Assembly (NCBI GenBank): GCA_963930775.1
Contig: OZ005699.1
Coordinates: 7,957,501 to 8,021,500, forward strand
DNA length: 64,000 bases
Origin: Cliona cf. orientalis
Taxonomy: Eukaryota; Porifera; Demospongiae; Clionaida; Clionaidae
Direction: 5' to 3'
Shown piece by piece: positions 23,043 to 53,800 of this stretch. A program made the translations under genes and the position numbers. Position 1 is the stretch's first letter. Each line of letters begins with the position of its first letter. The notes under the pieces are model-generated. The model had not been told where the DNA came from and did no database searches. It worked only from the letters and a program-made list of their open reading frames with translations.

Positions 23043-23113
23043 GTATTTAATAATAATGGTTATTATGGTACAGGCATGCATGTAATGATGACTTTTATTT
23101 TACTCATAAACAG

Positions 23114-25560
23114 CCACCAGTGGTATTCCTTTAAGTATCCCTGCGCTGCAACAACAGTTTCAGCCGCTTCGACCTCAGACTGGTACAGGAACTCTACCAG
23201 GTGATGATGTGATTTGATGGTCATCTTTTGCATAATCACTAGCCTCTTCCCCATTTGCCTCAATCTTTTTCAACACACGCAAGAGAAAGAATTTCAAAGT
23301 GATCAGGGCGACTGGGGATGAGGCTACATACTGTAAATCGCAAATATTTCGATATTAAAATATTTTCGGATAGCATGGCTTGTGCGAAAATTCAACGCAC
23401 AAAATACATGCGCAATATTAACGACAATGCGGTACAGGGTCGTTTGTCCGAAAATTATTTAACGCGAAAAATTATCGCATGAAATATTTTAGACACGAAA
23501 TAATCGCAATTTACGGTAGTTTCATAATTTAATTATTCTCTCTCTTGTGTACTTATAGGTCACATGGTATACAGTCCATACCCCATGTTCACTAACAGAA
23601 GTTTACCTACTGGTCATAATGTTATTATGCCACCGTATGGTTATCCACCAGTCCTCATGCCTCCACAGCAAGGGACTGCAGCTCAACCACATGCCATGAT
23701 GGCATCTTCATTTATGCCAATTGGAGGTAATTAGCACTTGTATGCATGCATAATGATAACATCTTACACCCACTCTGCATATAGGCATCAGGTATCCAGC
23801 TTATTTTCAAGATACTGGTAGTGCTACTGGCGCACCTTCAATGCCTCAAAGTGTCGGTTACTTCACTCAAGTTCAGAATCCAGCACCCTTTGGTGCTCAG
23901 TCAGGTTGGTCTGTTTTGACATCTAGCTAGATGCTCTCATTAGCTTCATGGGGAGTGCTGCAGTCACAGACTTCCTCCTTTATGTGTGATTAAGAGTATA
24001 ATGTTCTCTAGTTGGAGAGAGAGGGAGAGTGCCCTACTTTGTATACCTTAGGGCTACGATTATTTGCGGGTACAAATATTAGCTGATTTTGAAATAGTGC
24101 GTTCAGCCATACCACCTAATGCGACATTTCCTATAAGGTCATGAACTCATGCAACAGCTGTTACAGTGTATATATCCCCTATCTCTCTCCTTGGTGCATG
24201 TGATTAAGAAAAGTATTGTCTGGGCTAGACTGAATTGTTGTTTTCAGCACTTTCTTGGGTAAAAAATCACTTTACACCAACCAGCCTATCCACAGAGATT
24301 GCCTGTTGTAGCCTCTAATGCAAGTGGTGGAGGTAGGTATTTAATAATAATGGTTATTATGGTACAGGCATGCATGTAATGATGACTTTTATTTTACTCA
24401 TAAACAGCCATCAGTGGTATTCCTTTAAGTATCCCTGCGCTGCAACAACAGTTTCAGCCGCTTCGACCTCAGACTGGTACAGGAACTCCACCAGGTGATG
24501 ATGTGGTTTGATGGTCATCTTTTGCATAATCACTAGCCTCTTCCCCATTTGCCTCAATCTTTTTCAACACACGCAAGAGAAAGAATTTCAAAGTGATCAG
24601 GGCGACTGGGGATGAGGCTACATAGTTTCATGATTTAATTATTCTCTCTCTTGTGTACTTATAGGTCACATGGTGTACAGTCCATACCCCCAGTTCACTA
24701 ACAGAGGTTTACCTACTGGTCATAATGTTATTATGCAACCGTATGGTTATCCACCAGTCCTCATGCCTCCACAGCAAGGGATTGCAACTCAACCACATGC
24801 CACGATGGCATCTTCATTTATGCCAATTGGAGGTAATTAGCTACTTGTATGCATGCATAATGATAACATCTTACACCCACTCTGTATATAGGCATCAGGT
24901 ATCCAGCTTTTTCTCAAGATACCGGTAGTGCTACTGGGGCACCTTCAATGCCTCAAAGCGTCAGTTACTTCACTCAAGTTCAGAATCCAGCACCCTTTGG
25001 TGCTCAGTCAGGTTGGTCTGTTTTGACATCTAGCTAGATGCTCTCATTAGCTTCATGGGGAGTGCTGCAGTCACAGGCTTCCTCCTTTATGTGTGATTAA
25101 GAGTATAATGTACGTTCTATAGTTGGAGAGAGGGAGAGTGCCCTTGTATACGTTAGGGCTACGATTATTTGCGGGCACAAATATTAGCGGATTTTTGAAA
25201 TAGTGCATTTAGCGGGTACTCATTTTAGCGATTTTTATTCTATTTATTCGAAAATGTTGAAATTTTTAGGTGCAAATATTAGCGAAAATCGGGTAAATCG
25301 CTGATTTCACTAAATTAAGTGTCCTTAAGGTACCCTAGTGTAACATGAAGTCATGACCTTTTGCCATACCACCTAATGCGACATTTCCTATAAGGTCATG
25401 AACACATGCAACAGCTGTTACAGTGTATATATCCCCTATCTCTCTCCTTGGTGCATGTGATTAAGAAAAGTATTGTCTGGGCTAGAATTGTTGTTTTCAG
25501 CACTTTCTTGGGTAAAAACTTTGCACTATACACCAACCAGGCTATCCACAGAGATTGCCT
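23114..25560 (+). other. Tandemly duplicated phase 1 cassette exons
   Basis: Two copies of a 1.29 kb module each hold four exon-like blocks: 23114-23200, 23559-23726, 23785-23904, 24285-24332 and 24408-24494, 24665-24832, 24892-25011, about 25541-25600. The first seven start and end in phase 1, so any number can be added without changing frame; the last ends in phase 2 at its visible donor. Products are rich in Pro, Gln, Tyr, Met and Gly (e.g. YGYPPVLMPPQQG). They sit where a linker between the COR and death domains would be. The copy 2 Roc exon can no longer splice to them in frame. Whether they are transcribed is unknown. Confidence 0.6.
23331..23516. mobile_element. 186 bp MITE with TA target duplication
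   Basis: Inverted ends CTGTAAATCGCAAATATTTCG-like and CGAAATAATCGCAATTTACGG flank an AT-rich body, between TA at 23329-23330 and TA at 23517-23518. The second copy of the surrounding module has the empty site (GGCTACATAGTTTCAT, TA at 24623-24624). Confidence 0.88.
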
Positions 25561-25735
25561 GTTGTAGTCTCTATTGCTCATCAGTGGTAAGAGACATAGC
25601 CTCTTGTGTTTCAAGGTCAAGTTACCTTCAATTACTGACAGATTGACACCACTTAACTACAAATCATTTAGCGGATGTAATGGTTGTACACATGTAATTG
25701 CACAATATAATCATTTATAACTGAATTCCTAATAG

Positions 25736-34000: not shown

Positions 34001-36236
34001 ATGTATATATATATATTTGTATGTATGTTTGTGGGGTGATCATTTCAGTGAGGAGAGAGTTAAATTTTGAACGCGTACGGTAATGGTCGTCATGCGCATG
34101 TGCATACGCTCGCACTGTACCATCAATCTGAGAGACAACTCGAGTGTAGGCAAGGCAGAAAACTGGATGAGTGCTGTACCACTCTGGCAAGGCTCAGGTC
34201 CACGATTAACATCACTGGTAGACTCCACTTTCCTGAGCATGAAGATGACTGTATGGAGGCTTATCCCCTCAGGGCCTGGCTACAGGTACTTGGACTCATG
34301 GTCATGGCATGTAGACTATGGCAACATTACTGGACTAGCTATAGCTATTATACTAGCAATCTGTGATACTTTCACTGTTGTGGCAGCTTCTTAGTCCTAG
34401 CTATTGGGGCAATCCCATGTGCGCACGTATACCTGTGTGCTTTCAAAGAAATCTTGTGACTTTGGCGAAGGCTCGCCCCGCACAGATGATTTTCATCACC
34501 ACTAGTAATAATATTATACATTGTATTGTTTTTGCTGACTCAGCGGCTGGGTTGTGTAGGTGTCCTGTGGTAAACGCGCTCTAATTACTCCGCGTGCGCG
34601 CATGCGCAGCAGGGGGTAAAGCAATCGGTTTGTCTGTTGTCTGTTGTCTGTCCGCACAAAAATCGGCAAATCTCAACATTTAGGCAAAAGTAGGATCAAT
34701 AAATGGGTTAAAATGATGTAAGACAGCGAAAAAACACCTTCTGTCTCATTCTTAACACTAGGCAATACCCAGGGAAGCTACAAATCGTGCGAGTATGTCG
34801 GACACGCCTACTTCGGACACGCCCACCTAGTACCTCCTAAAGTCTATTGCGCATGCTCGAGCTGCTCTCTATTTCCAGGGAGTCTACTACGCATGCTCGA
34901 ACGGCTCTACAGCATACTTCCAGCTCAAAATTTGTGATCGTGGACCTCAGAAGGGAACAACAAAGTTCATGAGTGGCAAGAGATCCAGAGAAGCTACAAA
35001 TCGTGCGAGTATATCGGACACGCCCACCTACTAGGGTAGTAGTACCACATGAAGTCTATTGCGTATAATATATATACTCGAGCTAATCTAGGGAGTCTAC
35101 TGTGCATGCTCGATCTGCTCTACAGCATACTTCTAGCGCAAAATTAATGTCATTTGTGATCATAGATCTCAGAAGGGAACGAAAAAGTTCATGAGTAGCA
35201 AGAGATTAAATTTCAAAGAATAGAGGTCTCTAACAAGAGGCATGGCCATGGACGATATTGCCATGGCACGCGGGGTATGTGCTCTATGAGCTCTAGTTAG
35301 AATCTGTGACCAACCTCCTCTGGGGGACATGGTCATATTCATAGAACTTGTCATGCTAAAGGATGCATAATGTATGTAAATCACATGTCACATTGGATTA
35401 CTCATTATTTTGTTCAGTATACCTCATTCTTACTGCACGTTCACTGTTGCGAAAGCTAAATCAGTGACCATTACTGATAATTAAATAATAGTTAGAGACC
35501 GAGCCCAAGGTCTCTACGCATTTTAAGAGACCTGAAGGCTCGAGGCTGTATATAGCATCCCAAGCGAAGTGAGGGTGCTACTAAGGGCCTGAGGTCTCTT
35601 AAAAGCATAGAGACCATTGGACGAGGTCTCTAACTGATTTAGAATATAGCAACTGTAACCGTGGTAGTTGACCTGAGGACTAGGCTACTGTTGCACTGTG
35701 CATCTTTCTTTGCCCTTGGCTATACTTGTAGGTCTGTATGAAACTTGTAGGTCTCTAGAGACCTCTGAGTGTCCGATCAGATCACAGTATTAGTTATAAC
35801 TATATTCTAATTAAATTGTAATTAGTAAGGGTATAATGGGTCTAATGTTTATACTACATATGAGGGATGGCTAGCTATGCTCTCATATATAGCTCTGCTA
35901 TCTTTTTGCAATACATGTACATGTAGAACTTGTCGTGCTGCTGCATCTATAAAGGATGTATGATGATTTTGGTGTATGTTAATCACAGAGACTGTAATTA
36001 CTGCTGAAGAGGAGAAGCACATTGCTGCTGTGCAGAAGGCCATGGAAGAGAGAGGAATGCTAGATCACACCATAGTCCATGGTGTGTTTGTAGGCCCTGC
36101 TCGTTCTGGTAAAAACTCCCTCATGGAACGTCTTCTCGGCCGAATGCCCTCCTCTGTGTCTCCAAGCACTGGTGTAGCTGAGAGTGTGGTGCAAGTTAAG
36201 GTGATACAAAAATCAATAACATTCGCTGCAAATGTA
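31023..36236 (+). CDS. Kelch / death-like / Roc-COR / death protein, copy 3, 5' part
   Basis: Exons 31023-31076, 31661-32588, 33061-33408 and 35989-36236. Together with 44683-47082 they total 3978 nt, an exact multiple of three (about 1325 aa). Six kelch blades and the death-like exon are intact. The donor used by one reading of copies 1 and 2 (GGTAAT) reads GTTAAT here, but GTGAGT six bases downstream is present in equivalent form in all copies and keeps the frame; I therefore prefer it. The Roc exon is open through the P-loop (GPARSGKNS) and is then cut by a transposon right after AANV, where the frame stops a few codons into the element. As assembled, this allele cannot make the full protein. 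Confidence 0.75.
31174..31644. mobile_element. 471 bp inverted-repeat element in the first intron of copy 3
   Basis: Perfect 25-base inverted ends beginning CCGTAAAAGTTCTAATTACA, bounded by TA on both sides (31174-31175, 31643-31644). Copies 1 and 2 lack it at this position. Inside is a short open frame with a HIRAN-like look (31310-31609). No transposase was seen. Confidence 0.85.
31310..31609 (+). CDS. Small open frame, HIRAN-like fragment
   Basis: 99 codons inside the inverted-repeat element. Residues about 20-65 (FEVSFYAVVRGFHVYQAIW, then GEALAIQREHGNPEDTYAVA) resemble the N-terminal half of a HIRAN-type DNA-end binding domain. The strand pattern then runs into element sequence. The resemblance is from memory of the family. 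It may be a captured gene fragment and not a working gene. Confidence 0.35.
   Translation: MLRSRRTCTLIPVIDMPGDFEVSFYAVVRGFHVYQAIWTPTVGEALAIQREHGNPEDTYAVAVTQHLPHSNYKRQFNISDWRLALYLEQKKYDTMPSGT
32655..32980. repeat. Foldback element, relative at 60183-60300
   Basis: The right part (32840-32975) folds with about 43-base arms (TTTCTACGTGATTTAGAAGA and complement). The left part (GGTTAGGGTTGTTGCTAGGC, then GGGCATTGTTGCTAGGATCTAAAC) recurs in reverse at 60183-60300. It lies in the second intron of copy 3 and is absent from copies 1 and 2. Confidence 0.7.
33883..35323. mobile_element. 1.44 kb insertion with short inverted ends
   Basis: Left end AGTAGAGGAGGTTGTTCACA pairs with right end TGTGACCAACCTCCTCTGGG. 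Unit 2 runs straight across the site (CTGGGGACATAGTCAT). Inside are TATATA repeats, a GGGGCGAGCCTGAGCGAGCCCC palindrome-like motif split by element sequence, and a tandem duplication. No transposase is recognised. Confidence 0.6.
34774..35213. repeat. Two-unit tandem repeat of about 220 bp
   Basis: The block from GCTACAAATCGTGCGAGTAT to GGCAAGAGAT is repeated at about 34991-35213 with substitutions and small indels. Confidence 0.8.
35491..35634. repeat. Foldback element built on AGAGACC
   Basis: Starts GTTAGAGACC and ends GGTCTCTAAC, with inner arms CTCTACGCATTTTAAGAGACC and its near complement. It sits at the point where unit 2 carries the 18778 element. Confidence 0.75.
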
Positions 36237-36267
36237 CAGTACGGATCTGATGCAACTTAACACTCCC
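36237..36267. repeat. Left terminal inverted repeat of the outer transposon
   Basis: 31 bases starting CAGTACGGATCTGATGCAAC, directly after the TA target site. Confidence 0.93.
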
Positions 36268-36724
36268 TCGCGCGCGAGCTTGCAATTACTCGAGCGTAGT
36301 CACGTATGGCACCGCTCTTAGCGTTCGAGTGCCTCGCGAGGGATGGTATGAGCCCCTCCCTAACTCGCACGCGCGTGCGCTCGTACTCGCACGCGCGCGC
36401 GTGCGCGTTCGTACTCGCACTACGTATATTCGAGTGCCTAAGTACTCGATCGAGAGCTTACGTAGGCGTTGAGTGCAACAGTGCCTAATCTATTTAAACG
36501 AGCATGCGCCGTATAAAAGGGGCGTGGTCAGGCCAAAAATGTCATTCGCTAAAATTTTGAACTTACAAAATGGCTGCCTTCTGCCAAGTGACCGTTCTCG
36601 CACTTTTACACCCATAGACACACACTAACAACTGTCAAAAACGCGAATAAAAGCAAGAGCGCTCCAAATAGAACTTTTTGCACGTGTTCGCATATTATTT
36701 GTTTCGAAGCTGATCTGTGATATT

Positions 36725-39241
36725 ATGTCGAGTTCTAATTCCTCCCGAAAGCGTCATCGCTTCACTCTACAAGCGACTTTCTCGACTTACCGGGAGAAGG
36801 AAGCCTTTGAGCGTCGATTTGAGGCCGTTTGCAAGCTCCTACAACCCGTAGGAGCCCCCACTCTAGACAATCACGGTGTGTTATGCGCCTTGTTGGATGC
36901 GGTAGAACGGAATGCGAGACCACAGGACAATTCCCCGGGTAATGAGCGCGTGGAAACAAGGAGCTTTCTACGAAACAGTGGTAAGGCTGAGTATGTGCAG
37001 ACTATATATGATAGCTATGTTCAAGTGTGTATGCATCACATAGGAGTGTATGTAAGTGATGAGCACCAGGAAGACCAAGCATTGTTTGTGACCGAAGAGT
37101 GCTGTTTTTCTGACCTGGTTGAAGGACTCTGCTCCCCATGTCCCTGTGGGCTGACAATAAAGCCATGGGCTGTGGAGTCTATCAAACAGGTTACAATATT
37201 GTAGCGTCAAGTATAGCAAGCTGTTTGTCATGATCTTCTTGTCCCATAGAAAGGTCATGTGTTGCGTGTGCTGTTCTCTTGCCGCCGTTGCCATCGGCAA
37301 AGGAGGACATGGTCAAGTTCAAGAGTACTCAGTGGGCTCTACTTAGCTAATCAGAAGTAAATTTTAGTGTCGAGTAGAGTGGTTATATTACCGTTTGTGT
37401 TGTTGTAGGTTGGTTCATGGTTTCACTTGCGCTGGTGTGTTGCCTACTCAGTACATCAACTTTTCCAAGTTTTCAGGCATGGGCAGTGTTGGACATGGCT
37501 ACATCAGACAAGGTAATTGTCATGCATATACACTGGTTTATTTCAAGAATTCAATAACATTTCAGTATACAATCGCCGTGGGTACATTGGCATAGTGGAT
37601 CGTTTGGCCGAGCAATTCATGAAGAAAGCAGTGGAAGAGGTGGAGACCCTCCCAGACTATGTAACAAAGGGAGAGGTTTGTATAAACGTACATGTACATG
37701 TATACAAATGAGTGATGTTCTATGTTCACAGTGGGTCATCACTGACGCCAGACATGACTCAACTGCTAATGCCTACCACACCACTGTGCCTTGCCTTTCT
37801 GGAAGGTGACAATGCTTTTCATTGACAATACTAATTGTTTCTATTGTACCCTATGTACATACAGTACCATGAAGATTGTTGGCATTTCTACCATTTCGCG
37901 AAGTGAACATCATGTGGCCCAAACTCGTGAACTTGAATGCACTAAGGTAGTTGTGCCCCAAGTCATTGCTCGAGGTAGGTTATATACAATGTGATGTATA
38001 CTATAATGTGTTGTGTGTATGTGTATAAAATTTGTGTATGTCCATCCAGGTTTGAAAATCGTTGAGATTGCACATGATATGCAGCTTGCTGTTGGACGCT
38101 ATGTGAAGCAAGATCTCAAGCTCCTCAACTCCTTTGACACATGGCATGGTACGAAATGGATGGTATACTTTATATTTGAATTGATGCGACTACACCATTG
38201 TGTGTAGGAACCAAGAATGTTGCCAAGGAGCTCGCCAAAATCACCAAGGGCAGAGTAAGAGATCGTGATGTGACATGGTTTACTGAGCTTACGGATAAAC
38301 GTATGCCACTTGTATGTACTGTGTAGTTATGTGGATAATGTAGTGTACTTTTTCAGGAAGAAGTATTAAAATTCATCTCTACTGGGCCATGAAAAACTGT
38401 GGTGGATGTTCAGATGCTCTCCGCAAGCTCATTCTCAACATACCCAACCATTATATGGTATTAGCAGTCGTTTGTCCTACGTCATACAATATGGAAGCTG
38501 TTCACGTATATATATTTACTTACAGGGAATCCACTCTGACTGCCATCCAAGTTCGTCATGTCATGATCCTGGATACATTCCCAGTAGGCTGGAGCTCACT
38601 AACCCTCAAGCATGTCAGGCACTGCTCAAAGGTTTGAAGGACACCTACGTGTACCGCTATGCCGATGACTTCTGTCGGGTATGTATGGTTTTCACAGTCA
38701 GTCCTCTTGCAATATTTAGCTTATATTACATGTATACAGTGTCGCGACACTTACTGGGTGGAGAGTTTCAACCACCAGCTGCTCACATACTTACCGAAGC
38801 GGATTCACTTTTCCACCAGGGTGTTCAATATGAGAATGAACCTCGCAGTGATGGACTGGGTCAGATGCATGATTTATGCTGTTTGTATCTTTATATCTAT
38901 ATCGTTGTAAATTATGCAGAATGAGAATGTGAATCGCACTCATACCAGTGTACACAAGGTGAAAGACCTTCGACGACCAGACAGGCGTACACCTATGAAG
39001 GTCCTAGTGGAGAAGACGTTCAAGTTTGTTGAGCTTGTGTGGACAGCATATGTTGATGACAACAAACCCGACATCAGGTATGTATCGTACATCATCCTAT
39101 ACTTTATATATTATGTGAAAATTGTTTTTTATCTTTAGAGAGATTGAAGATGAGGAGACTGAAGATGAGGAGACTGGTGACCTAGATGGAGAAGTTGACG
39201 ATGGCACACTTTTATCCGAGGCAGAATCGGATGACGACTAA
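36725..39241 (+). CDS. Kolobok-like transposase, about 13 small exons
   Basis: Begins 36725-36980 and continues through short exons near 37031-37192, 37250-37371, 37410-37513, 37564-37676, 37731-37806, 37863-37975, 38050-38147, 38208-38299, 38356-38456, 38525-38679, 38741-38860, 38921-39077 and 39139-39241 (approximate limits). Cysteine pairs (CPCG, CRRC) come first, then WSSSR, then HGFTCAGV. The likely catalytic acidic residues are in TDARHDST, in the IAHDMQ or FDTWHG block, and in WVESFNHQ, followed by WNENVNR near the end. The C-terminus is acidic. No break was found by eye, so it could be active. The family call rests on remembered sequence patterns of cnidarian and fish elements. Confidence 0.65.
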
Positions 39242-39419
39242 GCAATTTCACAAGACTACATGTATGTATAATATTATGTCACTGACTGATATGGTGTTAC
39301 TGGCTCCACTTGCATATACTTTTGTTGCTGTTTAGGTTTATGTAATATGTATGTGCACTGACCTCACTTTCTCACCGAGTCCATACCGACCTCCTTGCCC
39401 ACAGGACAGTATTGCTGAT

Positions 39420-39600
39420 CTCATCCACACAGGATAGTGCTATGATATTCGTATTCCCCCCCCCCTGTGCTATATTATTATGATATTCGTATTTTGCCCC
39501 CCCCCCCCCCCCCCCCCCCCCCCGTGCTATGATATTCGTATTGTGTGTCCCCCCCATTACAGTGTTATGATATTCTTATTGTGTGTCTCCCCCAGCAGTT
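39420..39600. repeat. Poly-C tandem repeat in the nested element
   Basis: Units of TGCTATGATATTCGTATT joined by C runs of 6 to about 28 bases. They lie between the convergent ends of the two genes of the TTAA element. Confidence 0.85.
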
Positions 39601-39638
39601 TCCCCGGTGACTACCATAATTATATCTCTTGCTTAAAT

Positions 39639-40410
39639 TTAATCAAGTGCACTTTCAGCTTCGAAAGTAGACATATAATCTTTATATTCGCCATCATGGC
39701 TAGGATATCTTCTTCTGATTTCCTATAGACAGAAACATTATATTACCTATTTGATACAGTGCAATCCTTGCTTACTGTAATGACACATTTCGGAATTATT
39801 TCCCTCTTGTCTGCCCTTAGAGTTCTCCGCTCCTTTCTCAGGAGGTACTCCTCATCCTGGAAGACGCCGAGAGTGTTGAGCAACTTCCAAAACGCTTTGT
39901 ACAATCTGTACCGCTTCTCATCATTCGCCGGATGGGGACTGCAGGCGCCGCGCAGGAAGTCAGGGGGCAACGCAATGACGCAAGGGGAACACAAACAGTT
40001 GGGGCAATTATTCCTGCCACGAAGAATCGGACAACTGCTTGACTGCCGATAGCCTTCGGGGTGACTCGGAAAGGTAACACCTAAAGTGTCATATATTTGA
40101 GTATATTTTTACTGAGTTTGTACATGTAGCTACCTGTGCTACCCTGCTGCTGGGTCTCATTGTCAGTGGATGGTGGCTCATCCTCCTCGAGACGTACCCA
40201 TCTCAGTTGAACCGTCAAAGCAGGCAGCTGGCTTTCATGGACCATACGGTTCACACGCGATACAAAAACTTGAGGAGGAGTGTGTGTATATTCTACTTTC
40301 ACCTAGTTTTAGTAGTTTTGTGTTATGTTTATATTATTGTTCTTGGTTATATGATAGTACTGCTATGAATATCTTACTGTAATCACTCTCTTGTCAGCTG
40401 ATGAGGCCAT
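39639..40410 (-). CDS. Cysteine-cluster accessory protein of the TTAA element
   Basis: Four exons on the minus strand: 40378-40410, 40134-40302, 39776-40053 and 39639-39722. They total 564 nt, or 187 aa, in one frame. The N-terminus is variable and acidic. The conserved part is a cysteine cluster (CPNCLCSPC), then ALPPDFLRG, PHPANDEKRYRLYK and IIPKCVIT, ending EIRRRYP. I recall the same motif set in many uncharacterised, mobile-element-associated proteins of cnidarians and sponges; it faintly resembles the zinc-binding P2X7-like tail domain. Function is unknown. Convergent with the transposase. Confidence 0.7.
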
Positions 40411-40961
40411 ACTAGCGGCAGCGTGACAGGACGGTTGAAGGACTTCTGGTTTGTGTGCATGTGGCTGGAGTAAACACGTGTCTAAGCTAACAGAGCGTGT
40501 CCGATCCTGTTGCGCTTGCGTGTTGTGTAGCCTCGAAAGACAGAGAATCGCGGGCATTCTGGACTAGTTTTGAATTTGAAATTCATCCGCCATATTTATG
40601 CGCATGGTCAAGAACTTCCGGCCTGACCACCCCCCTTTTATACTCCGCCCTCATTGATCGCGATTCGCGAAAGTAACGCGTACGTACGGAATATTTATTC
40701 AACACATGCTCGTTTAAGCCAACAGCGCGCGTGCTACGCGCGTGCTAAGTCACACTCCTATGATTAGCTAACACAAGCATGGTCATGACCCTGGCACGTA
40801 AACAAGCTTCACTGAATTGTGTTGTGGTTTTGCAATGTCTTTAATTTAGATAAGAGGGGAATGTAGAGTTGTGACAAGAGCAAGACAGTACAAGTGTACA
40901 CACATTGTAGCAGCTTGTGCATGTATGGCAGTAAAGGAGCTATAATATTATACTAAAGTTC

Positions 40962-42727
40962 CTAAGCCTTGGTTTTTCTATTTAGTCTTCTATTCCCTTC
41001 ATCAATGGCAATGATACACTCAGACCAGGCCTTTTCAATCTTCTCGATTTGGTGATTCAGTGGATACATCTGAAAAGTCTTTCTCTTTACATAGTCGATT
41101 CGTATAGGATCCAACTTTGGCTTGTTACGACCGTTCACATTGCACGTAGAACGCTCTGTCTCCGTAAAAATCATTGCAACAAGCTTTTTGGCGAAGTTTC
41201 TTCTTGATATGCCACTGCTTTTCATGTCTAGAATCTTGCTGTGTTCAATATATTCTTTCTCGAGGTTGGTAGTAGCTGGATGTTCGATTAAAGATGTGGA
41301 AAGATTGGCATACCATGTGGAGGAAGGATGTGCATAGGCCGATGTTGAGAGAGGGGCTGGGGATTTGCTCATGGAGTGAGATAGAAGAGGCTGCTGAAGT
41401 TTATCCTGGCCCATATCAGGGAGGGTGGGTGTAGGCTGAGCCAGCAGACAAGGATCTACAGATGGATTTTCTGGAGGGGAAATATTTGTCTGACTTGGGG
41501 CTGACAACTGGCTCATGGCATGACCCAGCTGAACTTGAGCCTGACCCACAAGAGGTAGATTGGTCGTAGGGTGACTCGGTGGAAAAGGATCGGCTGGATG
41601 ACTTGCTGGCGGGGAAGGATCAGCTGACTGAATTTCTGGCGGAGGAATGACCGTCTGTCTTGCTGGAGGATGAGCTGGTTGCGCAGTCGACGAGTTCACT
41701 GGTTTCAGTAGACTCACTAATTGTCCTAAAGATGCCTCTACTCGATCCTGCCTCTCACTCAGATTTTTCAAAGAATCAGTGACCAAAGTCAATTTGGAGT
41801 TCATGATGTCAACTGTGCTTGAAATTGATGACAATAATTCGGATAACTTGAACTGCTGTGTAAATAAAAAAGAATATGTATACTTACCATGTACATGTAT
41901 GTGTATGTTGTTATGTAGAGTTATTTTTTGAACATGTACCTTTGTGGTGGAATGATTCTTGTCATCATAGCCATCAACATCAATGACAATCTTGTGAGGA
42001 GAAGGATGGGGGTAAACTGCATCATCGCTGTTGCTAGAAGAGAATGATAAAGATGGTAGATGACTGTCATCGGGATTGGTTTGAGGTGGCACGTCATCAG
42101 TTGCTGGAGTGGACTTAGCAACTGGAGATGTCATCTTCGCTGGTGAACCTAGTTCAAATGTGAACTGCTGTTGCTTTTTCCCCTGTTGGTGAAGTAAGAA
42201 ATGTGTGTACAGTGTATAAAAAAATTGTACATCAATGGGAATCTCTCACTCACTTTTTGAATCTGTGCCAGAGGCTTCCTGGTAGTTATCAGCTTGCGGT
42301 GCGGTGTACGTGTTTTGTTCTCCTTTGCTCTACACTGAGAACGCTTAGTCTTCTTTGGAGGTGGCGGTAGCTCGGTAGTAGCCTCTTCCTTCTCATACAT
42401 TGAGGCTAGATGCTCTTCCTCAGCTTTTTCCATTGAAGCCTTATCACCCTTGTCAATGACGGTTGCGGTCAAAAGCTCACTTCCATTCCACTTCACTTGA
42501 CAGCCATCTCCTACATTTAGGAGGTCAGGATCTACCACAACCTTCCTTGTTACAACACAGAGACATTCATCCACTTCAAACTTGACAAGAAAGTGGCTGG
42601 CACCTGAGAAAGAATGACCTTGTTTCAATCTAAGGTACAGTATAGGACAAACAATAATTTGTACCACACACACATACCGTAGGTACTCTCTGACACACAC
42701 ACACACACACACACACATACACACACA

Positions 42728-42770
<43 letters not shown>

Positions 42771-42916
42771 ATACACATCTCACCTGCTGTCAGTTTAAGA
42801 ATTGCCTGCCTATCAGTCATCTCACGGTTACGATGGTCAGGTTCAGTCACATTGGGTGGTAAAGGTGAAGTTCCACGATGGTCAGGTCGTGAATCTTGCA
42901 GGATCTCTTCAGTCAT
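40962..42916 (-). CDS. BEN-domain protein carried by the Tc1-type element
   Basis: Four exons: 42784-42916, 42254-42603, 41940-42182 and 40962-41855, giving 1620 nt and 539 aa in one frame. The N-terminus has a duplicated GTSPLPPN motif. The next exon looks like a small Tudor/SH3-like chromatin module (CQVKWNGSELLTATVID), then a basic stretch (PPPPKKTKRSQ). A short coiled segment and a Pro-rich linker follow. The last 100 residues resemble a BEN domain (RRNFAKKLVAMIF, CNVNG, KPKLDP). BEN domains bind DNA and chromatin proteins, so a regulatory or targeting role is possible. The start is uncertain because the frame is open slightly upstream of 42916. Confidence 0.7.
42692..42774. repeat. (AC)n microsatellite in the first BEN intron
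   Basis: About 80 bases of AC repeat with occasional interruptions. Confidence 0.95.
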
Positions 42917-43296
42917 ATTGGGTGGTAAAGGTGAAGTTCCACTTGATGGCTGAACTGGAGGGTTAAGAACTTGGAAGCTGGAGAGAAGGCTTGAGCACTG
43001 AAAAGGAGCAGTAACTGGAAGTTATGAACACTTCCAAAGCTTCTGACAGCTTTTATGGACTGGGTTTTGAAGGCACTTGAGAAGTTTGTACTTTGTCCTC
43101 AACTTTGATCTTGGACTCATGGTATGTACAGAAGGGCAGTACTTTGACCTTTAGACACTATGAACTACATGTACATGTATCGCTTTTCATTTGTCACTGA
43201 GACTACATGTAACAATTATTATTAATTTTGTTTCTCAACTTGTTATGTATAACAGCAAGTAATCAAACAATAATACTGCAGATACATGTACAAACA

Positions 43297-44316
43297 TTAA
43301 TACCCTGAAGGGGCTCCATTAACTTCTATTACTTTAGGTACAACTTTAAGCAGGTGGTCTATATACTTTGTACAAACTTGAGGTGTCAAAGTTTTCCAAA
43401 ACTGTTTGATCCCATCTTTCAGCTCAGGTACTGTCTTAGGTTTTGCGTATGTTCTTAGGTACTGCTTCATCGATCCCCAAACGTTCTCAATGGGGTTGAG
43501 ATCTGGACTTGAAGGTGGAGTTTTCCACCATTCGATCCCCTTGCGCTGGAAGTAATCTTGTGCCCATCGACTCGTGTGTTTAGGGTCATTATCTTGCTGA
43601 AATCTGTGTCCATCAGGATAATGACCCTCGATGAACGGTACCAGTGCCGCGTCAAGAATGTCAGTGTAGATGGTGGCATTCATTATCCCAGTGAAAATCA
43701 CGATTGCTGTAGCTCCTTTCTTAGAAATTCCTCCCCAGACATGGACCTTTGCTGGATGCTTTGGTCGGCTGCACATTCTTGCTGGCTCTCCTATTCTATG
43801 GTAAGTTACTTTTCGATGTGACTCGAGTTGTACAGAGCATTCGTCAGTCCAGATGACGTCAGAAAATTCAAGATCGTTGTTCTCGATCAATTGCCTGCAA
43901 AACTCGACTCGCTTTTCTTGATTCCTCTCGCTGATGAGAGCGCAGTACCGCGTTCTCTTGGAGATCCATCCTAGTCGAAGGCGAGCTCGCTTCACCGTGC
44001 TGACAGAAACCGACTCTAAGTCAGGATACTCTGCTAATAGGGCCGAGTGTAGCTGTCTCGAAATCATGTCGACGTTGTTGGCGACGGTGTTATCGATAAA
44101 TCTGTACTGGTCCTCGTTCAGCAACAGTGGTCTCGATCTTCGCTTTCGATCTTGTATCGATCTTGTAGCCTCGTACTTTCTACATAGGGCGTACAGAGCC
44201 ACCTTCGACACGCAGACACCTTCGTTCTCTAAATGCTTAGAAATCTGGTGAATCCCGATGCCTCTGTTCTTAAACCGCACCACCTTCGCTCGCGTCTCCA
44301 AACTCATACGCCCCAT
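43297..44316 (-). CDS. Tc1-type transposase, DD34E
   Basis: Single open frame of 339 aa, the usual Tc1/mariner length. Residues about 1-110 form two helix-turn-helix DNA-binding regions (RFKNRGIGIHQISKHLE, then STVKRARLRLGW). Catalytic residues are D158 (WTDECSV), D242 (QQDNDPKHTS) and E277 (NPIENVW), with 34 residues between the last two. WGGISKKG is typical of Tc1. No stop or frame shift, so it may still be active. It lies 364 bases from the right end of the composite element, reading inward. Confidence 0.96.
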   Translation of the reverse strand: MGRMSLETRAKVVRFKNRGIGIHQISKHLENEGVCVSKVALYALCRKYEATRSIQDRKRRSRPLLLNEDQYRFIDNTVANNVDMISRQLHSALLAEYPDLESVSVSTVKRARLRLGWISKRTRYCALISERNQEKRVEFCRQLIENNDLEFSDVIWTDECSVQLESHRKVTYHRIGEPARMCSRPKHPAKVHVWGGISKKGATAIVIFTGIMNATIYTDILDAALVPFIEGHYPDGHRFQQDNDPKHTSRWAQDYFQRKGIEWWKTPPSSPDLNPIENVWGSMKQYLRTYAKPKTVPELKDGIKQFWKTLTPQVCTKYIDHLLKVVPKVIEVNGAPSGY

Positions 44317-44649
44317 ATCAAACTTCTTTGACTCTGCTAGTACCTTTCACGATGACTTGATTCTTCTCTCTCGCTCTTACACGTCTCTGGTCGCACAACA
44401 AACTGATTTATGACACCTGGCCTGTCTCGAGCGCGAGCGCGCGCGCGAACGCTAGCAATTACTCCGCCCACTACTGTAACCCTCGAGGCCTCGCGAGCTC
44501 GGCCTCGCCCTCGCGCTCGCGCGCGCTCGAGCATGCACAACGAGTACGGAGTGCGCGAGATACTTCATACTCGCCTCGCGCTCGAGCGATGCGTGCGCTT
44601 GAACGTATGTACACTCTACTCGTACTCGTGACTCGAATGTCGAGCGCTC

Positions 44650-44680
44650 GGGAGTGTTAAGTTGCAACAGATCCGTACTG
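44650..44680. repeat. Right terminal inverted repeat of the outer transposon
   Basis: Complement of 36237-36267 with one mismatch, directly before TA at 44681-44682. Confidence 0.93.
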
Positions 44681-44682
44681 TA

Positions 44683-47082
44683 TTAGAATCAATTTGGTCG
44701 ATAATGGACTATGACGATGAGGCAATTAAGCTAATGTTAATTAATAGTGAGTCACAAGATAGAATAACAATACAGATACCTAATCTTGAGCGTGAGGATT
44801 CATCAGACAACCGTAGCACTCCTGAATCTCTTATATGTAGTAGGAATGACAATACTACAGATTCTGACTCTGATGATGAGTGGTTTGATGCCCTATCTAG
44901 CTTGCCATTGCATGACTCTGAATCAGATGATGAGTGGTTCGATGCTCCAACTAACTTATCGTTGCATGAAACTCACCAGAATCTACCAGCAAATGAAGTA
45001 GCCCCTTCCACAGATTCGTCTCAGGATTATACACAAGTAGAGGATAAAATAGAATCAGCAATAACAACAGTGGTTCAGTCACCCCCAAATAGATCACACT
45101 GTCAGCTTCCTGACTCATACGTTCCTCCTATTGAGATTATAAAGGTGGCATTAAGGAATAAAGGTAAGACAGGGATAGAGGTTCTTCAGCAACACTTTCA
45201 GAAGACATGGTCCCTATACCTCACAAACACTGGAGGCCAAATGGAGTTCCAGGAGGTCTTGCCACTCTTAGTATCTGGTCCCTCAATATTCTTCTTCACC
45301 TTTCGCCTTGATAGAGACCTCAATGAACGTTATAAGATAGAGTATGACCTTTCTGATGGTACAAAAGCAGAGCCATACATATCAACCCTTACAACATTGG
45401 AGGGGCTCTTACAGACATTGGCCACCATTGCCGCTATGGGTACATTTGTCTATGAGCGGTTACAAAGGAGAAAAGTACCCCTTAAACCAAAGGTATTCAT
45501 TGTAGGCACACACAGAGATAAATTAGATGAGGCAACAGCTGATGCTCACATTTCCAGCGTAGACCAGCAGCTTCAGGAGGCAATAAAATCCACTGCACAT
45601 TATAAAGACTTAGTAGAATTCGCCTCTCCAACACAATTAATGTTTGCTGTTAGTAATTTTTCAGAGAGTGAGTCCGATTTTAAACTCATTCGTTTAGCTG
45701 TTGAACGAGTTGTAAGACGAAATGACTTTACAATGACTTCTCCTGTTCACTGGCTGATCTTTAGCCTTGCCCTGCGAAAGCTAAAGTCTTTTGTGATTAC
45801 TTACGACCTCTGCTTGGAGGTTGCTCGGCAGTGTGGCCTTGCTGACGATGAAGTTGATGAAGCACTTCATTTCATTCACTCTAAGATGGGATTGATCCGC
45901 TACTTCCCATATGAAGATGTCAAGGATCTAGTTGTCATTGATCCACAATTTTTGTTCGATAAGGTGACAGAACTTATTGTTGATACTTTCACATTTGAAA
46001 ACACAACTAAACAAACTATGGATGATTTTAAAAAGAAAGGTATTTTCTCTCTTAGTGAATTTGAAACAATTAGCTATAAAACAAATACCAGCATTAAGCC
46101 ATATAAATTTGCTAAGCTTTTAGAGAGTCTACGGATTGCTGCTCCATTTCAAATGGACAGAGAACGAAAGTATTTCTTTCCCTGTGTTCTTGCTCATGCT
46201 GTAGAAACTGCACTTCAGCAATTAATGATTACAGCCACTCCAATACCACAGTTGATTATTACATTTGAGTGCGGGTATTGTCCCAAGGGTTTAGCTGGAG
46301 CTCTTATCAAGTACCTGATGGCAAACGAGATGGAATCATGCTATACCTGGGAGATCTATACTGATAAAATCTTCAGGAATCAAGTATCGTTTCATGTGGG
46401 GCCTCTAGATACGATAGTACTTAGAATCACACCAACATACTTGGAGATTATTTGCATCCCAGGCAGATTTCCAAACCGCGATGAGAAATGTCCACTTTCA
46501 AAAGTTTGCTCTGAAGTTCGCAATGCCGTTGAAGCTGGTATTAAACAAGTAACATCTGATATTAACTACGTGAATGCTCAACATGGTCTGACATTCCGTT
46601 GTGAGTGCAAAGGTGATCATCCAGCTTCACTTCGGTATCTGGGAACTGAGCCATACATTCTTTATTGCAGCAAAACAAATGAGCGATATCCCTTGTCTCC
46701 AGAGCATGAACTATGGCAAGTAAAGAAGCCTCAGCCCCATCATGATCCAATGCCCCCACCTCAGGCTCATGCTAAACAGCAAATGCAGCCACCAAAAACA
46801 TTTGGTACTAGTCTGAATGAAGCCGATCACCACTCTATCCTATTCAACCAGCTAGAAAAGCACAGTACTGAATGGAGGAGTATCGGCAGATGCTTAGGAT
46901 TTCTCCCCAGCAAGCTTAAGAATATTCAAGCCAAACCTCCGTTGTGGGACAGTGCCCCCAGTAGCTGGTTAGAAGAGATGCTTGTGCAGTGGCTTTGCTC
47001 TGGCACTGCAACGCTTGAGACTTTAAGGAATGCACTTTATGAAGCTGGGCTTGGTCAAACCGCCAGCAACCTCCACATTTAA
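44683..47082 (+). CDS. Copy 3 Roc-COR-death exon, 3' part
   Basis: Continues the Roc exon broken at 36236. It opens LESIWSIMDYDDEAIKLM and holds the switch motif NTGGQ, the specificity motif THRDKLD, a full COR domain, the cysteine-containing post-COR region and a C-terminal death domain (ILFNQLEKHSTEWRSIGRCL, AGLGQTASNLHI) to the stop at 47082. The acidic insert inside Roc is the longest of the three copies and contains a tandem DDEWFDA repeat. Death domain and COR sit in one exon, as in copy 1. The frame is clean for about 800 codons, so the transposon insertion is probably recent. Confidence 0.85.
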   Translation, partial: LESIWSIMDYDDEAIKLMLINSESQDRITIQIPNLEREDSSDNRSTPESLICSRNDNTTDSDSDDEWFDALSSLPLHDSESDDEWFDAPTNLSLHETHQNLPANEVAPSTDSSQDYTQVEDKIESAITTVVQSPPNRSHCQLPDSYVPPIEIIKVALRNKGKTGIEVLQQHFQKTWSLYLTNTGGQMEFQEVLPLLVSGPSIFFFTFRLDRDLNERYKIEYDLSDGTKAEPYISTLTTLEGLLQTLATIAAMGTFVYERLQRRKVPLKPKVFIVGTHRDKLDEATADAHISSVDQQLQEAIKSTAHYKDLVEFASPTQLMFAVSNFSESESDFKLIRLAVERVVRRNDFTMTSPVHWLIFSLALRKLKSFVITYDLCLEVARQCGLADDEVDEALHFIHSKMGLIRYFPYEDVKDLVVIDPQFLFDKVTELIVDTFTFENTTKQTMDDFKKKGIFSLSEFETISYKTNTSIKPYKFAKLLESLRIAAPFQMDRERKYFFPCVLAHAVETALQQLMITATPIPQLIITFECGYCPKGLAGALIKYLMANEMESCYTWEIYTDKIFRNQVSFHVGPLDTIVLRITPTYLEIICIPGRFPNRDEKCPLSKVCSEVRNAVEAGIKQVTSDINYVNAQHGLTFRCECKGDHPASLRYLGTEPYILYCSKTNERYPLSPEHELWQVKKPQPHHDPMPPPQAHAKQQMQPPKTFGTSLNEADHHSILFNQLEKHSTEWRSIGRCLGFLPSKLKNIQAKPPLWDSAPSSWLEEMLVQWLCSGTATLETLRNALYEAGLGQTASNLHI

Positions 47083-47800: not shown

Positions 47801-50800
47801 TCACTTGTACATATTTTGCAAGTCGGTATAGAGGTTCTGAGCTAGCTCTAGTGGAGCTCCGATGACCTTTACCCTTTGGTCACAGCCCTTCAAGTCCTCC
47901 TCCTCCCAGGCAAAGAGCTCAAAGTCAGCTCGAGAGAGCATCTCCACCAACTGAGAGAAGGTTGGACGACGAGAGTTCTCTGGCTGCCTGTACATGCATG
48001 GCATTGTTATTACATAATGGATCATGTATGGTATTATTGTGTAGAGGATATGTAGTATTATGTGATTTGTGCATCTCCATATATGGAGTGTACTTATAAT
48101 ATTATGTAATGTGTATGATGCAATATGTATGATGTCATGCCATGTGCTCTGGAGCATCAGAAACTTATATAGCTAAAGAAGTGTGTGCTGAGAGTTAATC
48201 TATTAGCATCGTAGTCAACGGCACTGAAGACCGCGTAATACATGGTGGCAGCGGCGGGATCCACTATCATTTTGCCGTTAGACGTTGATAAACACTTTTC
48301 TCGCTGAATCTGAGTATGGCAAGTGCCACATACCAAGTTGTTCCTCCCCAGCCTTTCGATTTCAGCAGTCCTAACGAGTGGACACGATGGATTCGACGAT
48401 TCGAACGCTTTAGAGCAGCCTCTGGTCTCGAGGAAAAGGGAGAGGAGACTCAAGTGAACACACTCATCTACACTATGGGCGAGAAAGCCGATGACATATT
48501 TCACTCTTTTGATCTGTCAGATGAAGACAAGAAAAAGTACGAAACCGTCAAGAATAAATTCGATTCACACTTTGTCAAGAGAAAGAATATTATCTATGAG
48601 CGTGCCGTGTTTAATAGGCGCAAACAGGAAGAAGGTGAGAGTGTAGATACATTCATCACTACCTTGTATACTCTGTCAGAGCACTGCAATTACGGTGCCT
48701 TAAAGGAGGAGATGATTCGTGATCGTATCGTCGTTGGGTTACGTGACTCAAATCTTTCGCTCAAACTCCAGCTGGACGAGAAGCTGGATCTCCAGAAAGC
48801 TATCACCCAAGTTCGTGAGGCGGAGACGATAAAGCAGCAGCAGCCCACGTTAAGGGGGACACAAAAGGAGACCACAGCAAATGTGAGCAATCTCCATAAG
48901 AGGTCCACCAAGTCAAACAAGAAAGAGCAGGGACCCCATCACCGACAGGCACCAAAACAACCAGTCAACAAGACAGTATGTGGTCGATGTGGCAAATCAC
49001 CACCCCACGATCGTCAACACTGCCCGGCCAAAGACGCTACTTGTCGAGAATGCGGAAAGCGTGGACACTACAAATTAATGTGCAGATCTAAGAAAAAGGT
49101 CGGGGAGGTTTATCACGATTCAGCAAGCAACGATTACGAATGCGATGACTACGAGTATGATGACGTATTTCTCGGATCAGTGGAGACGGAACACGACAAC
49201 CCCTGGTTGATATCGCTACAGCTGGAGGGTAAGCCAGTTGAATTCCACATTGATACGGGTGCTGAAGTCAGTGTGATCCCAGAGCCTGTGCACAAGAAGA
49301 TAGGTAGTCCTCCACTCTCACCAGTCAAACAGACCTTGAGAGGACCAAGTAACGCAGTCCTGCCGGTAAAAGGGCTATTTTCTGCCATACTTAGCAGAGA
49401 CAGCCAACAGAGCAAGCAGGATATCTATGTGGCAGCAAAGCTCCATAAACCCCTCCTTGGACGACCCGCCATAGAAGCACTGGGTCTAGTACAACGAGTT
49501 CGAGGAGTACAAGCAAAGCAACTAAACCCAATTCAACAATTTCCAAATCTCTTCACGGGCCTTGGACAGCTGCAAGGCGAGTACACCATCAAGCTGCAGG
49601 AAGGAGCAAAACCGTATGCCCTCTCGACCTCACGACGCGTCCCAATTCCACTAATGAAATCTGTTAAGGCAGAGCTGGAGCGTATGGAGAAGCTCGGAGT
49701 TATTTCCAAAGTCAACCAACCGACTGATTGGTGCGCAGGAATGGTGGTCGTGCCGAAAGGCAATGGAAAGGTACGAATCTGTGTCGATCTTACTCGTTTA
49801 AATGATAGCGTTTGTAGGGAGAGACACCCCTTACCGGTTGTAGATCAAATCCTTGCCCAGCTGGCTGGTGCTAAAATATTTTCTAAATTAGATGCCAATT
49901 CAGGGTTTTGGCAAATACCCCTATCCCCCGAGTCAATCCCACTTACAACCTTCATCACACCATTTGGAAGATTTTGTTTTCACAGGTTGCCCTTTGGCAT
50001 AACATCCGCACCTGAGCATTTCCAACGCCGCATGTCTGAGCTTCTGGGCGACATCGAGGGAGTAGTCTGCATGATCGATGACGTGCTAGTGCATGGTACG
50101 ACTCCCAAAGAGCATGACGATCGCCTTTACCGAGTACTTTGCCGACTTCAGCAAGAAGGCTTGACGCTCAACAAGGAGAAATGTAAATTCTCCCAAAACA
50201 CAGTCTCATTCCTAGGCCAAGTGATTGACGAGTCTGGAGTCCGACCAGACCCCGAGAAAGTGAATGCGATCAGAAACATGCCAATTCCCAGCAACGTTGG
50301 AGAGGTACGCCGATTTCTCGGAACTGTAAACCAGATGAGCAAATTTGCTCCGAACCTTGCCGATGTCACGAAACCGATACGAGACCTGCTCGTGAAGGGT
50401 AACCAATGGGTGTGGGCCGAGCCACAACAAAGAGCTTTCAATCAGGTCAAGCAAATGCTGTCTACGAGTCCAATTCTCGCTTTATTCGATCCCCAGCTCG
50501 ACACAGTCGTATCTGCTGACGCTTCCTCATTTGGACTTGGAGCAGTCTTACTTCAGAGGCAGCCTGAGGGCCAGATGAAGCCTGTTGCCTATATTTCACG
50601 ATCAATGACCCCCACGGAGCAGAGGTACGCCCAAATTGAAAAGGAAGCCTTAGCGCTTACCTGGGCATGTGAACGTTTCTCTGATTACTTGATCGGTCTT
50701 GTATTTCACATCCAAACAGACCACAAACCACTAGTTCCGTTATTCAGCTCAAAGAGTCTTGAAGAGCTTCCACTTCGAGTTCAGCGATTTCGCTTACGCA

Positions 50801-53800
50801 TGTTACGTTACCAATTTACAATCTCACATATTCCGGGAAAGGAATTGGTCATAGCAGACATGCTTTCGAGAGCCCCAACCAATACTCCAACTGGTGCAGA
50901 TCACGTCCTCCACCAGGAAGCCAATATTTTCATTAACACCATGGTCCAGGGACTACCTGCTACTGACGAACAGTTGGAAGAAATCAAACGACAGCAGGAG
51001 GAAGATGTAGTGTGTAACCAAATCAAGCGTTATTGTCGAGAAGGATGGCCCGCAAAACAAGAAGTAGCAGGAGCCGTACAACCTTACTACTCTGTATCAG
51101 CAGAGATATCGATTGCAAATGGTCTACTCCTACGAGGGAGCAGAATCATCATTCCAGCATCAATGCGATTGAGCATGCTGGACAAAGTACACACAGGTCA
51201 CCAAGGAATCACAAAGTGCCGTGAGAGAGCCCGGCAGTCTATATGGTGGCCAGGATTGTCTCGACAACTGGATGAACTTGTTAAGAATTGCCCCGAATGT
51301 TCCAAAGTTCAAAAACAGAGAGCACAACCTTTGATCACATCCTCCTTTCCTGAGTTGCCTTGGCAAAAGGTGGCAACCGATCTGTTCGAGTGGAAACACC
51401 AAAACTACCTCCTCATTGTCGACTATTTTTCACGATACATCGAAATAGCACTATTAAAGGGAACGTCAGCTGATGAAGTTATCAGACACACGAAGAGCAC
51501 TTTTGCGAGACACGGAATCCCGGAGTTGGTGATATCAGATAATGGTCCACAATTCAGTGCAGAATCATATGCTCAGTTTGCAAAGGAGTACAACTTTAAA
51601 CATGTAACCAGCAGCCCTTACCATCCACAAGGGAATGGTGAAGCTGAGCGTGCAGTAGGTACAGTGAAAAACCTGCTGAAGAAAGAAAGATCCATATCTT
51701 GCACTTCTCTCATATCGATCGACTCCCTTACAGAATGGATATAGTCCATCGGAACTACTCATGAACCGAAAAGTACGAACAGTCGTTCCTATCACTCGAG
51801 AACAGCGGACCCCACAAGTCCCAGATATGGTAGCTCTAAAAACGAGAGAAAAACAACTCAAAGATGATCAAAAGAAACACTTCGACAGACACCACGGAGT
51901 CCGAGACCTAACCCAGTTGATGCCTGGAGATCTAGTATGGATGCCTGACCGTGAGACAGAAGCGGTGGTCGAAGAGGAAGTAGCACCACGCTCTTACAAT
52001 GTCTCTACTCCTGGAGGTACATTGCGCCGGAACAGGAGAAACCTCATACGAGTCCCAGAAGGTCCGGGCGATGGGGAACTGGAAACAAACGAAACAGAAC
52101 CAGACCAAAATAGTGGAAATCCACCAGTACGTCGAAGTAGTCGAGTGTCGCGCCCGCTAGAGCGCTTTGACCCAAGGTGGTCATAACTCTGAACAGTTTT
52201 GAACTCTTTGATTTCCCGGAAGGGGAGATGTAGTATTATGTGATTTGTGCATCTCCATATATGGAGTGTACTTATAATATTATGTAATGTGTATGATGCA
52301 ATATGTATGATGTCATGCCATGTGCTCTGGAGCATCAGAAACTTATATAGCTAAAGAAGTGTGTGCTGAGAGTTAATCTATTAGCATCGTAGTCAACGGC
52401 ACTGAAGACCGCGTAATACAGGATATATACATGATAAGTGTACCACTCTTTTTTTACATTCAAAGTATATAGCTACATATGACATTGTCAGTACTATTAG
52501 TTATCATGAGTTCAAGACATTGGTGTCTTCCCTTAGCATTAATTTTATAGCCCAAGATTAGCTCTGAAAGGGTTTTAGGATCTATACAGGTGCATGCAGA
52601 ATAATCTATATTCTCTCCATGACTTCATCTCACTTACCAACATTGTATCATGATCTTATAGAGTTCTTTTGTGAGACCAGGAGGTGGTGGGAGGCGGTAA
52701 CCTTGGTCCACCATCTTGATCACCTGTAGGAAAATGTTTGAATGTTTTAAGCCTGTACTAAATTATGTTCACTTATACCTCTGGATTAGTATAGCTTTCA
52801 AACGGTTTGTGTCCGAGACTCCATATCTCATACATGACACATCCAAAGCTCCACACATCACTGGCTGAGGAATACTTCTTGTAATGGATGGCCTATAATA
52901 TCGAGTCAGAATGGGGGAACGTAATAGCTATATTCATTAACTGAGTTATTGGAGAGTCTTGATTTCTAAAATCTCCCAATCTATAAACACTTATAATGAT
53001 TCCTACCTCAGGGGCTGTCCACTTGACTGGGATTTTCCCTCCATGTGAAATGTAGTAGCTCGCATCCGTCAAGTTTCGGGACATACCAAAATCACTGATC
53101 TGTATACAAAATTAGATAGTAATTCATAGAATATGCATGGTTATATATAATATATAACAAATGGATGGCTATGCAGTTACAATCCAAATTGAAAGTGAAC
53201 TGTTACATGTACATATAGCTAGGTCCATTCAATGCAAGAGTGTGCATGTACACGTGTTTATCTTGTGATCTTATGCCATGGTACCAAGCACTTCATTTCA
53301 CAAATGGGGGGTATATCAATCCTTTAAAAATATAGTACTAGGGTATTGGCCGTATACGCTGCATGTTCCAGGACAGATCCAAAACTTACAGTATCTATTT
53401 CAGACCATTATGGTATACAGAGTGATCAACGACAGCAACCATGTATAGCCAATTTGAACACTGTTGTATACACTTGTTGTGGTGATTTGTTGATGCCGAT
53501 CTCGTGACATTAATTTACTGTTTATAGGAATATTGTTTGATTTGAGGGAGAATTTTCATTGGGAATCACTAGACGAAAAGGAAATGTGTAGGACATGGCA
53601 AAATTTCTACACATTTCATTTATTTTTACAAAAATTCTGCCCTATCCTCTGCCAAACGTGTGTAGGAAAGGTCATGTGTTGGTAAACACGACAATGAGGA
53701 ATCTTAGTTTTGGTCCAGTGAATCTATAGTCAATAATAGTTCTGAATGTAGTGATGTTTGCCTTGATTTTTCGAGGTGGGGGGGGGGGGGGGGGGAATGG

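Follow-up and report, generated by a model that had tools for sequence, protein, structure and literature searches.

One exon of a tandem gene family is interrupted by a transposon of about 4.2 kb that carries, beside a Tc1-type DD34E transposase, a gene for a BEN-domain protein. We put a probability of about 0.72 on the reading that this element inserted at a TA dinucleotide within the coding exon, that BEN genes accompany the clade of transposases to which it belongs, and that the BEN protein binds the CpG-rich ends of the element to aid transposition. In the proposed mechanism, the transposase would cut and paste at the terminal repeats and the BEN protein, whose DNA binding is predicted, would bind the CpG-rich stretches just inside both ends. 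The end-bound protein may then pair the ends, keep them accessible, or control the transposase promoter. A second gene, for a chromatin-type DNA-binding protein, on a transposon of an ordinary class that has itself been hit by another element is an unusual arrangement. Within a large host family, such a hit on an exon of a single member is ordinary of its kind, and here it is a clean case, with an unoccupied site at both levels of nesting. A Tc1-type clade that keeps a second DNA-binding gene beside its transposase allows the contribution of an accessory protein to be tested directly.

Boundaries of the insertion and the interrupted gene

The limits of the insertion are set by its ends and by its paralogues (Table 1). 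The terminal inverted repeats retain 90% identity when stretched to 41 bp. Such a pair is expected by chance about 4e-8 times, at equal base frequencies, in the 64-kb window (the whole stretch of DNA analysed, 64,000 nucleotides), and elsewhere in the window nothing agrees with the 31-bp end at as many as 20 bases. The TA dinucleotides at 36235-36236 and 44681-44682 therefore place the element at 36237-44680. Host flanks joined across the insertion aligned without gaps to both uninterrupted paralogues in the window, at 94% to copy 2 and 91% to copy 1. This confirms to the base the exact insertion that a sequence-only reading of this DNA had proposed from the 31-base inverted ends, the TA duplication and the two paralogues.

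Table 1. Coordinates of the host exon, the nested elements and their genes in the window
Feature	Position	Strand	Details
5' part of interrupted host exon, to left TA inclusive	35989..36236	+	P-loop by eye; acceptor AG before 35989 read in sequence
Whole insertion (outer Tc1-type element plus nested inner element)	36237..44680	.	8444 bp; inverted ends, TA duplication, empty-site paralogues
Left terminal inverted repeat	36237..36267	+	31 bp
Left CpG-rich subterminal region	36278..36493	.	CpG o/e 1.69
TTAA target duplication, left of inner element	36494..36497	.	
Inner nested Kolobok-like element	36498..40713	.	4216 bp; TTAA both sides, short inverted ends, unoccupied TTAA in C2 copy
Inner transposase gene	36725..39241	+	13 exons, 598 aa, no stop; splice model by hand
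KolX-like gene of inner element	39639..40245	-	3 exons (40134-40245, 39776-40080, 39639-39722); 166 aa; splice model by hand
TTAA target duplication, right of inner element	40714..40717	.	
BEN-domain gene	40962..42916	-	4 exons (42784-42916, 42254-42603, 41940-42182, 40962-41855); 539 aa, open; splice model by hand
DD34E Tc1-type transposase, intact	43297..44316	-	339 aa; D158, D242, E277
Right CpG-rich subterminal region, upstream of transposase	44317..44639	.	CpG o/e 1.63
Right terminal inverted repeat	44650..44680	-	31 bp, 1 mismatch vs left
3' part of interrupted host exon, from right TA	44681..47082	+	COR-A 1.2e-10; weak Death match

The joined empty site was also compared with the whole genome, where it had 12 matches. 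Nine of these span the junction, copies 1 and 2 included, two are the window's own halves, and one (C11:7938287) ends at the site. That this last paralogue had also received an insertion at the site was considered and rejected after its sequence was read: the frame is open and holds a different, slightly longer stretch with no transposon. No match spanning the empty site at 100% was found in the assembly, the best being a paralogue at 96%. The window sits within one 9.46 Mb contig (C11) which, together with the matching ends, argues against misassembly, a check raised earlier in case the two host parts lay on different molecules.

The host frame of the interrupted gene, copy 3 of the family, is clean on either side, and the claim that the empty frame can still be read stands. 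The 5' part of the exon is 95% identical to both window paralogues over 246 bases, and on the 3' side the frame stays open through 799 codons. From the left, the frame runs seven codons into the element and meets a stop at 36258; the insertion would be expected to abolish the full-length product of copy 3. The Death match in the 3' part (0.0033) falls below the cut-off. A Kelch reading frame lies upstream of the COR-A exon, and we infer that the two exons belong to one gene of the tandem family. Similarity to the 3' part was found at 56 places in the genome; apart from the part itself, nine of them reach 59-89% identity and the remainder fall below that.

A host donor at 36200 (98th percentile) and an acceptor in the right end at 44670 (92.5th percentile) are in frame by eye, and by using them the interrupted gene might still yield a near full-length protein with the element spliced out. 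We consider this highly unlikely, as the acceptor scores lower than every one of the 15 acceptors from which the score was built and the 15 modelled introns are short.

Several further observations concern the surrounding sequence. Copy 2 is uninterrupted at the insertion site, but its similarity to copy 3 ends at 23021; beyond the end of this match, 23021-25600 contains direct repeats that are 94-99% identical. The 5' part of the host exon is far more alike between copies (35859-36236 against 7794-8155 and 20864-21235) than the 3' part, with a Ks between copies 3 and 1 of 0.18 in the 5' part and 2.28 in the 3' part. This contrast is the pattern that gene conversion would give, and the transposon lies at the edge of the block. 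Downstream, an LTR-type retroelement at 48043-52420 has 200-base direct repeats at 99%, and its frame at 48316-51744 gives gag, protease, reverse transcriptase, RNase H and integrase matches.

The insertion into copy 3 looks recent, in agreement with the sequence-only reading. Decay of the 3' part of copy 3 along the entire copy-3 branch should have left about 12 stops, and none is seen; this estimate uses half of the Ks of 0.264 between copies 3 and 2, a probability of 0.037 that a substitution creates a stop, and 2397 bases. The outer element in the window is 98.0% identical to its C2 copy, gaps included; the alignment of 4232 positions contains 19 mismatches and 9 gaps. The closeness of these copies agrees with a recent insertion.

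Two nested elements and their genes

The 8.4 kb block had been taken for one transposon and is in fact a 4.2 kb Tc1-type element holding a 4.2 kb Kolobok-like one. The transposase of the outer element matches DDE_3 at 9.8e-22, above the cut-off, and Sleeping Beauty (5cr4) at 6.8e-23, with 34 residues between D242 and E277. The BEN-domain gene is on the same strand as this transposase. Its BEN domain (PF10523) was detected at 1.4e-5, with 25.6 bits compared with a Pfam cut-off of 23.2, and the nearest solved BEN domain is that of BEND3 (1.2e-6, or 7.2e-12 with a profile), BANP giving a weaker match (2.6e-4). Structure models built without an alignment were too poor for use, with a mean pLDDT of 54.5 for the BEN protein and 39.4 for the transposase. 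That the BEN gene sits in a nested element of its own was also considered and rejected, as the two sides of the gene have no inverted match of 9 or more bases.

A search of the genome for the outer-end pattern with up to three mismatches gave 10 places, three of which form end pairs: the window element and copies in C2 (4176 bp) and C13 (3630 bp). TA is present on both sides in all three, which were found without requiring it. Three relatives are also flanked by TA, but they were chosen by requiring TA and therefore provide no test. The C13 copy has lost parts of the BEN gene and has a stop within it. The end-paired copies, measured without the inner element, are 3.6-4.9 kb long with a BEN-domain gene present. 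Three places left unpaired in the search (C1:3923063, C1:11774104 and C1:13779366) have the 31-bp end at one mismatch and about 75% similarity just inside, and are perhaps short derivatives of a near family. No relative beyond this genome was found in collections of genome contigs, viral contigs and phages, which hold no animal genomes.

The transposase of the inner element has the residues D267, D332, DTWH353 and E480, assigned by eye, and its sole Pfam transposase match is Mutator-like (1.4e-6, above the cut-off). The KolX-like protein matches P2RX7_C at 2.2e-4 with 21.6 bits, below the cut-off of 23.5, and comparison with the PDB gave no P2X7 match. Both termini start AC after the TTAA and so depart from the published Kolobok ends, 5'-RR...YY-3'. 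Because the ends are AC rather than RR, we call the element Kolobok-like and do not file it as a member of Kolobok.

The outer ends and the gene models look intact, as they would if the 8.4 kb block moved as one composite unit. The further copies of the outer element make this a most improbable reading. None of those found holds the inner element, including the C2 and C13 copies and the one-ended copy C1:36770386, and the C2 copy keeps a single unoccupied TTAA at the target of the inner element. On these same observations a single 8.4 kb element was rejected. The inner family is also present elsewhere: for one 1201-base stretch of the inner element, the genome contains 19 copies at 95-100%, namely that of the window and 18 further close ones.

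BEN genes and CpG-rich ends in the transposase clade

The main reading extends beyond this insertion to the clade of the outer transposase. Genome searches matched the BEN exon at 43 or more places and the outer transposase at 130 or more. Pfam PF10523 was found at 25 genomic places, 22 of them no more than 2.5 kb from a match to a clade transposase; the other three are one place in the C1 copy of the outer-element family and two elsewhere. These two, C1:26154218 and C1:23074194, lie outside this family and more than 7 kb from any clade transposase, and are candidate host BEN genes. Among the BEN-exon matches listed, 31 of 43 were within 7 kb of a clade transposase (0.37 expected) and 12 were not. 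After the BEN searches were merged, 40 of 54 BEN loci had one of the 96 transposase loci no more than 7 kb away (0.35 expected) and 33 had one within 3 kb. As a control, the 150 DDE_3 places with the best scores were used in the same way, and 3 of the 25 PF10523 places had one of them within 7 kb. When these 150 were compared with the first 66 of the 130 matches to the clade, none coincided. Counted from the transposase, a BEN match lies within 7 kb of 41 of the 96 merged loci and none does so for the other 55. For clade transposase matches longer than 800 bp these numbers are 17 and 5 of 22, and one of the five (C4:7922427) showed weak similarity to BEN on subsequent searching.

The two genes also diverge together. 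Distances between transposases and between BEN proteins were correlated across 14 loci (Mantel r 0.838, reached in 0 of 9999 permutations), this set being what remained of 19 loci when five near copies were dropped. Several groups, judged by eye, are common to the transposase and BEN trees, some of them weakly supported in the BEN tree. Constraint on the BEN domain is indicated by pN lower than pS in 65 of 66 pairs of 12 domains, where pS is near saturation and the pairs are not independent, and in the alignment C...IDE..R.L is invariant in 8 rows. The agreement in distances and the constraint on the BEN domain therefore point to an old acquisition of the BEN gene by the transposase clade, followed by joint descent.

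BEN domains are known from host chromatin factors and binding by the BEN protein here is predicted; the gene might be a host gene picked up by chance, a passenger without a role in transposition. Against this, the association is present across many families and in three gene orders (convergent 18, tandem 18, BEN upstream 4, n=40), BEN protein and transposase diverge in step, and the domain shows constraint; we regard a chance passenger as very unlikely. Several of the tandem loci are on C6, contain stops, and may be duplicates of one another.

Both subterminal regions of the outer element are rich in CpG, with ratios of observed to expected CpG (CpG o/e, Table 1) far above the 0.45 of the window outside 36001-44700. 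The maximum per 250 bases is 41 CpG at the outer ends, the richest in the window, compared with 20 or fewer outside the element. Transposase-side ends could be identified by their CAGT start at 16 of 27 loci, several of the same family. The 260 bases just inside these ends had a median CpG o/e of 1.54 compared with 0.435 in the middle of the elements and 0.555 outside, and the end was higher in 16 of 16 cases in both comparisons. Both ends were CpG-rich in 6 of 6 end-paired copies, from three families. All six are tandem, and the far end would therefore contain no promoter for the element's own genes, making a role of these CpG-rich ends in binding likely.

The far ends also bear on a different function for the BEN protein, that of a regulator of the transposon's own promoter or a shield against host silencing rather than a cofactor of transposition. 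BANP and BEND3 are described as acting at promoters with CGCG or CpG-island sequence (PMC10206803, PMC10602864), and one CpG-rich end is on the promoter side of the transposase, where the richness could be that of a promoter island. The far end of the six tandem end-paired copies is CpG-rich as well, with no promoter for element genes, and we judge a purely regulatory or protective function somewhat unlikely.

Individual motifs within the ends, which were selected after inspection, gave a mixed result. BEND3 is reported to bind CCCACGCG when unmethylated (PMC10602864) and BANP to bind CGCG, in vitro with or without methylation (PMC10206803); neither the BEND3 nor the BANP motif occurs in exact form in the ends of this outer element. 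The sequence CTCGCGAG occurs once in each outer-element end and nowhere else in the window. The two other families for which both ends are known lack it there, and its candidacy as a BEN-binding palindrome common to the clade was dropped as unsupported in those families. When 6-mers common to both ends were compared with shuffles, one of three families was clear (0/300) and two were weaker (6/300 and 4/300). The cross-family 6-mer score between the outer-element family and C1_36.62 was as high as the scores within families.

The clade bears on the origin of the BEN domain in animal chromatin factors because 23 of the 25 PF10523 places are in or beside such elements. The domain might have arisen or spread as a transposon-borne reader of CpG-rich, perhaps unmethylated, ends, which would tie transposition to the DNA methylation state of the host, with BEND3 and BANP domesticated from such elements. 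We offer this as speculation and think it unlikely, though less so than a chance passenger.

Comparison with known systems

A literature search that covered titles and the beginnings of abstracts, with few subscription journals and with Repbase outside its scope, returned no BEN-bearing transposon. Judged by its transposase, ends and TA target, the outer element is a member of the Tc1 family, with the TA duplication, a DD34E DDE_3 transposase and inverted ends of about 30 bp. Similar to Sleeping Beauty-like members of that family, it has 31-bp inverted ends flanked by TA. It differs in content and size. Tc1 elements are described as one-gene elements with a mean length near 1300 bp (PMC7325037), whereas the end-paired copies here are 3.6-4.9 kb and add a BEN gene. 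The usual single gene in about 1.3 kb, a trait that we do not take as defining, is replaced here by two genes in 4.2 kb without the inner element.

The TBE and Tec elements of ciliates provide a precedent for extra genes, as they are Tc1/mariner elements with a DD34E transposase and additional genes, among them a zinc-finger protein in TBE (PMC7325037). They differ from the outer element in that their accessory genes are others, they are restricted to ciliates, and their inverted repeats are about 80 and 700 bp; the portion of that account on which we draw mentions no BEN domain (PMC7325037). The inner element resembles the Kol0 lineage of Kolobok in its TTAA target and perhaps in a DDE transposase with DxxH, assigned by eye, and in a KolX-like second gene. 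Kol0 ends are published as RR (PMC9587614), in contrast to the AC of the inner element, whose KolX match is just below the Pfam cut-off. BEND3 and BANP have the BEN domain in common with the protein of the outer element, BEND3 being the nearer of the two. They are chromatin factors, whereas the BEN protein described here is encoded by a transposon.
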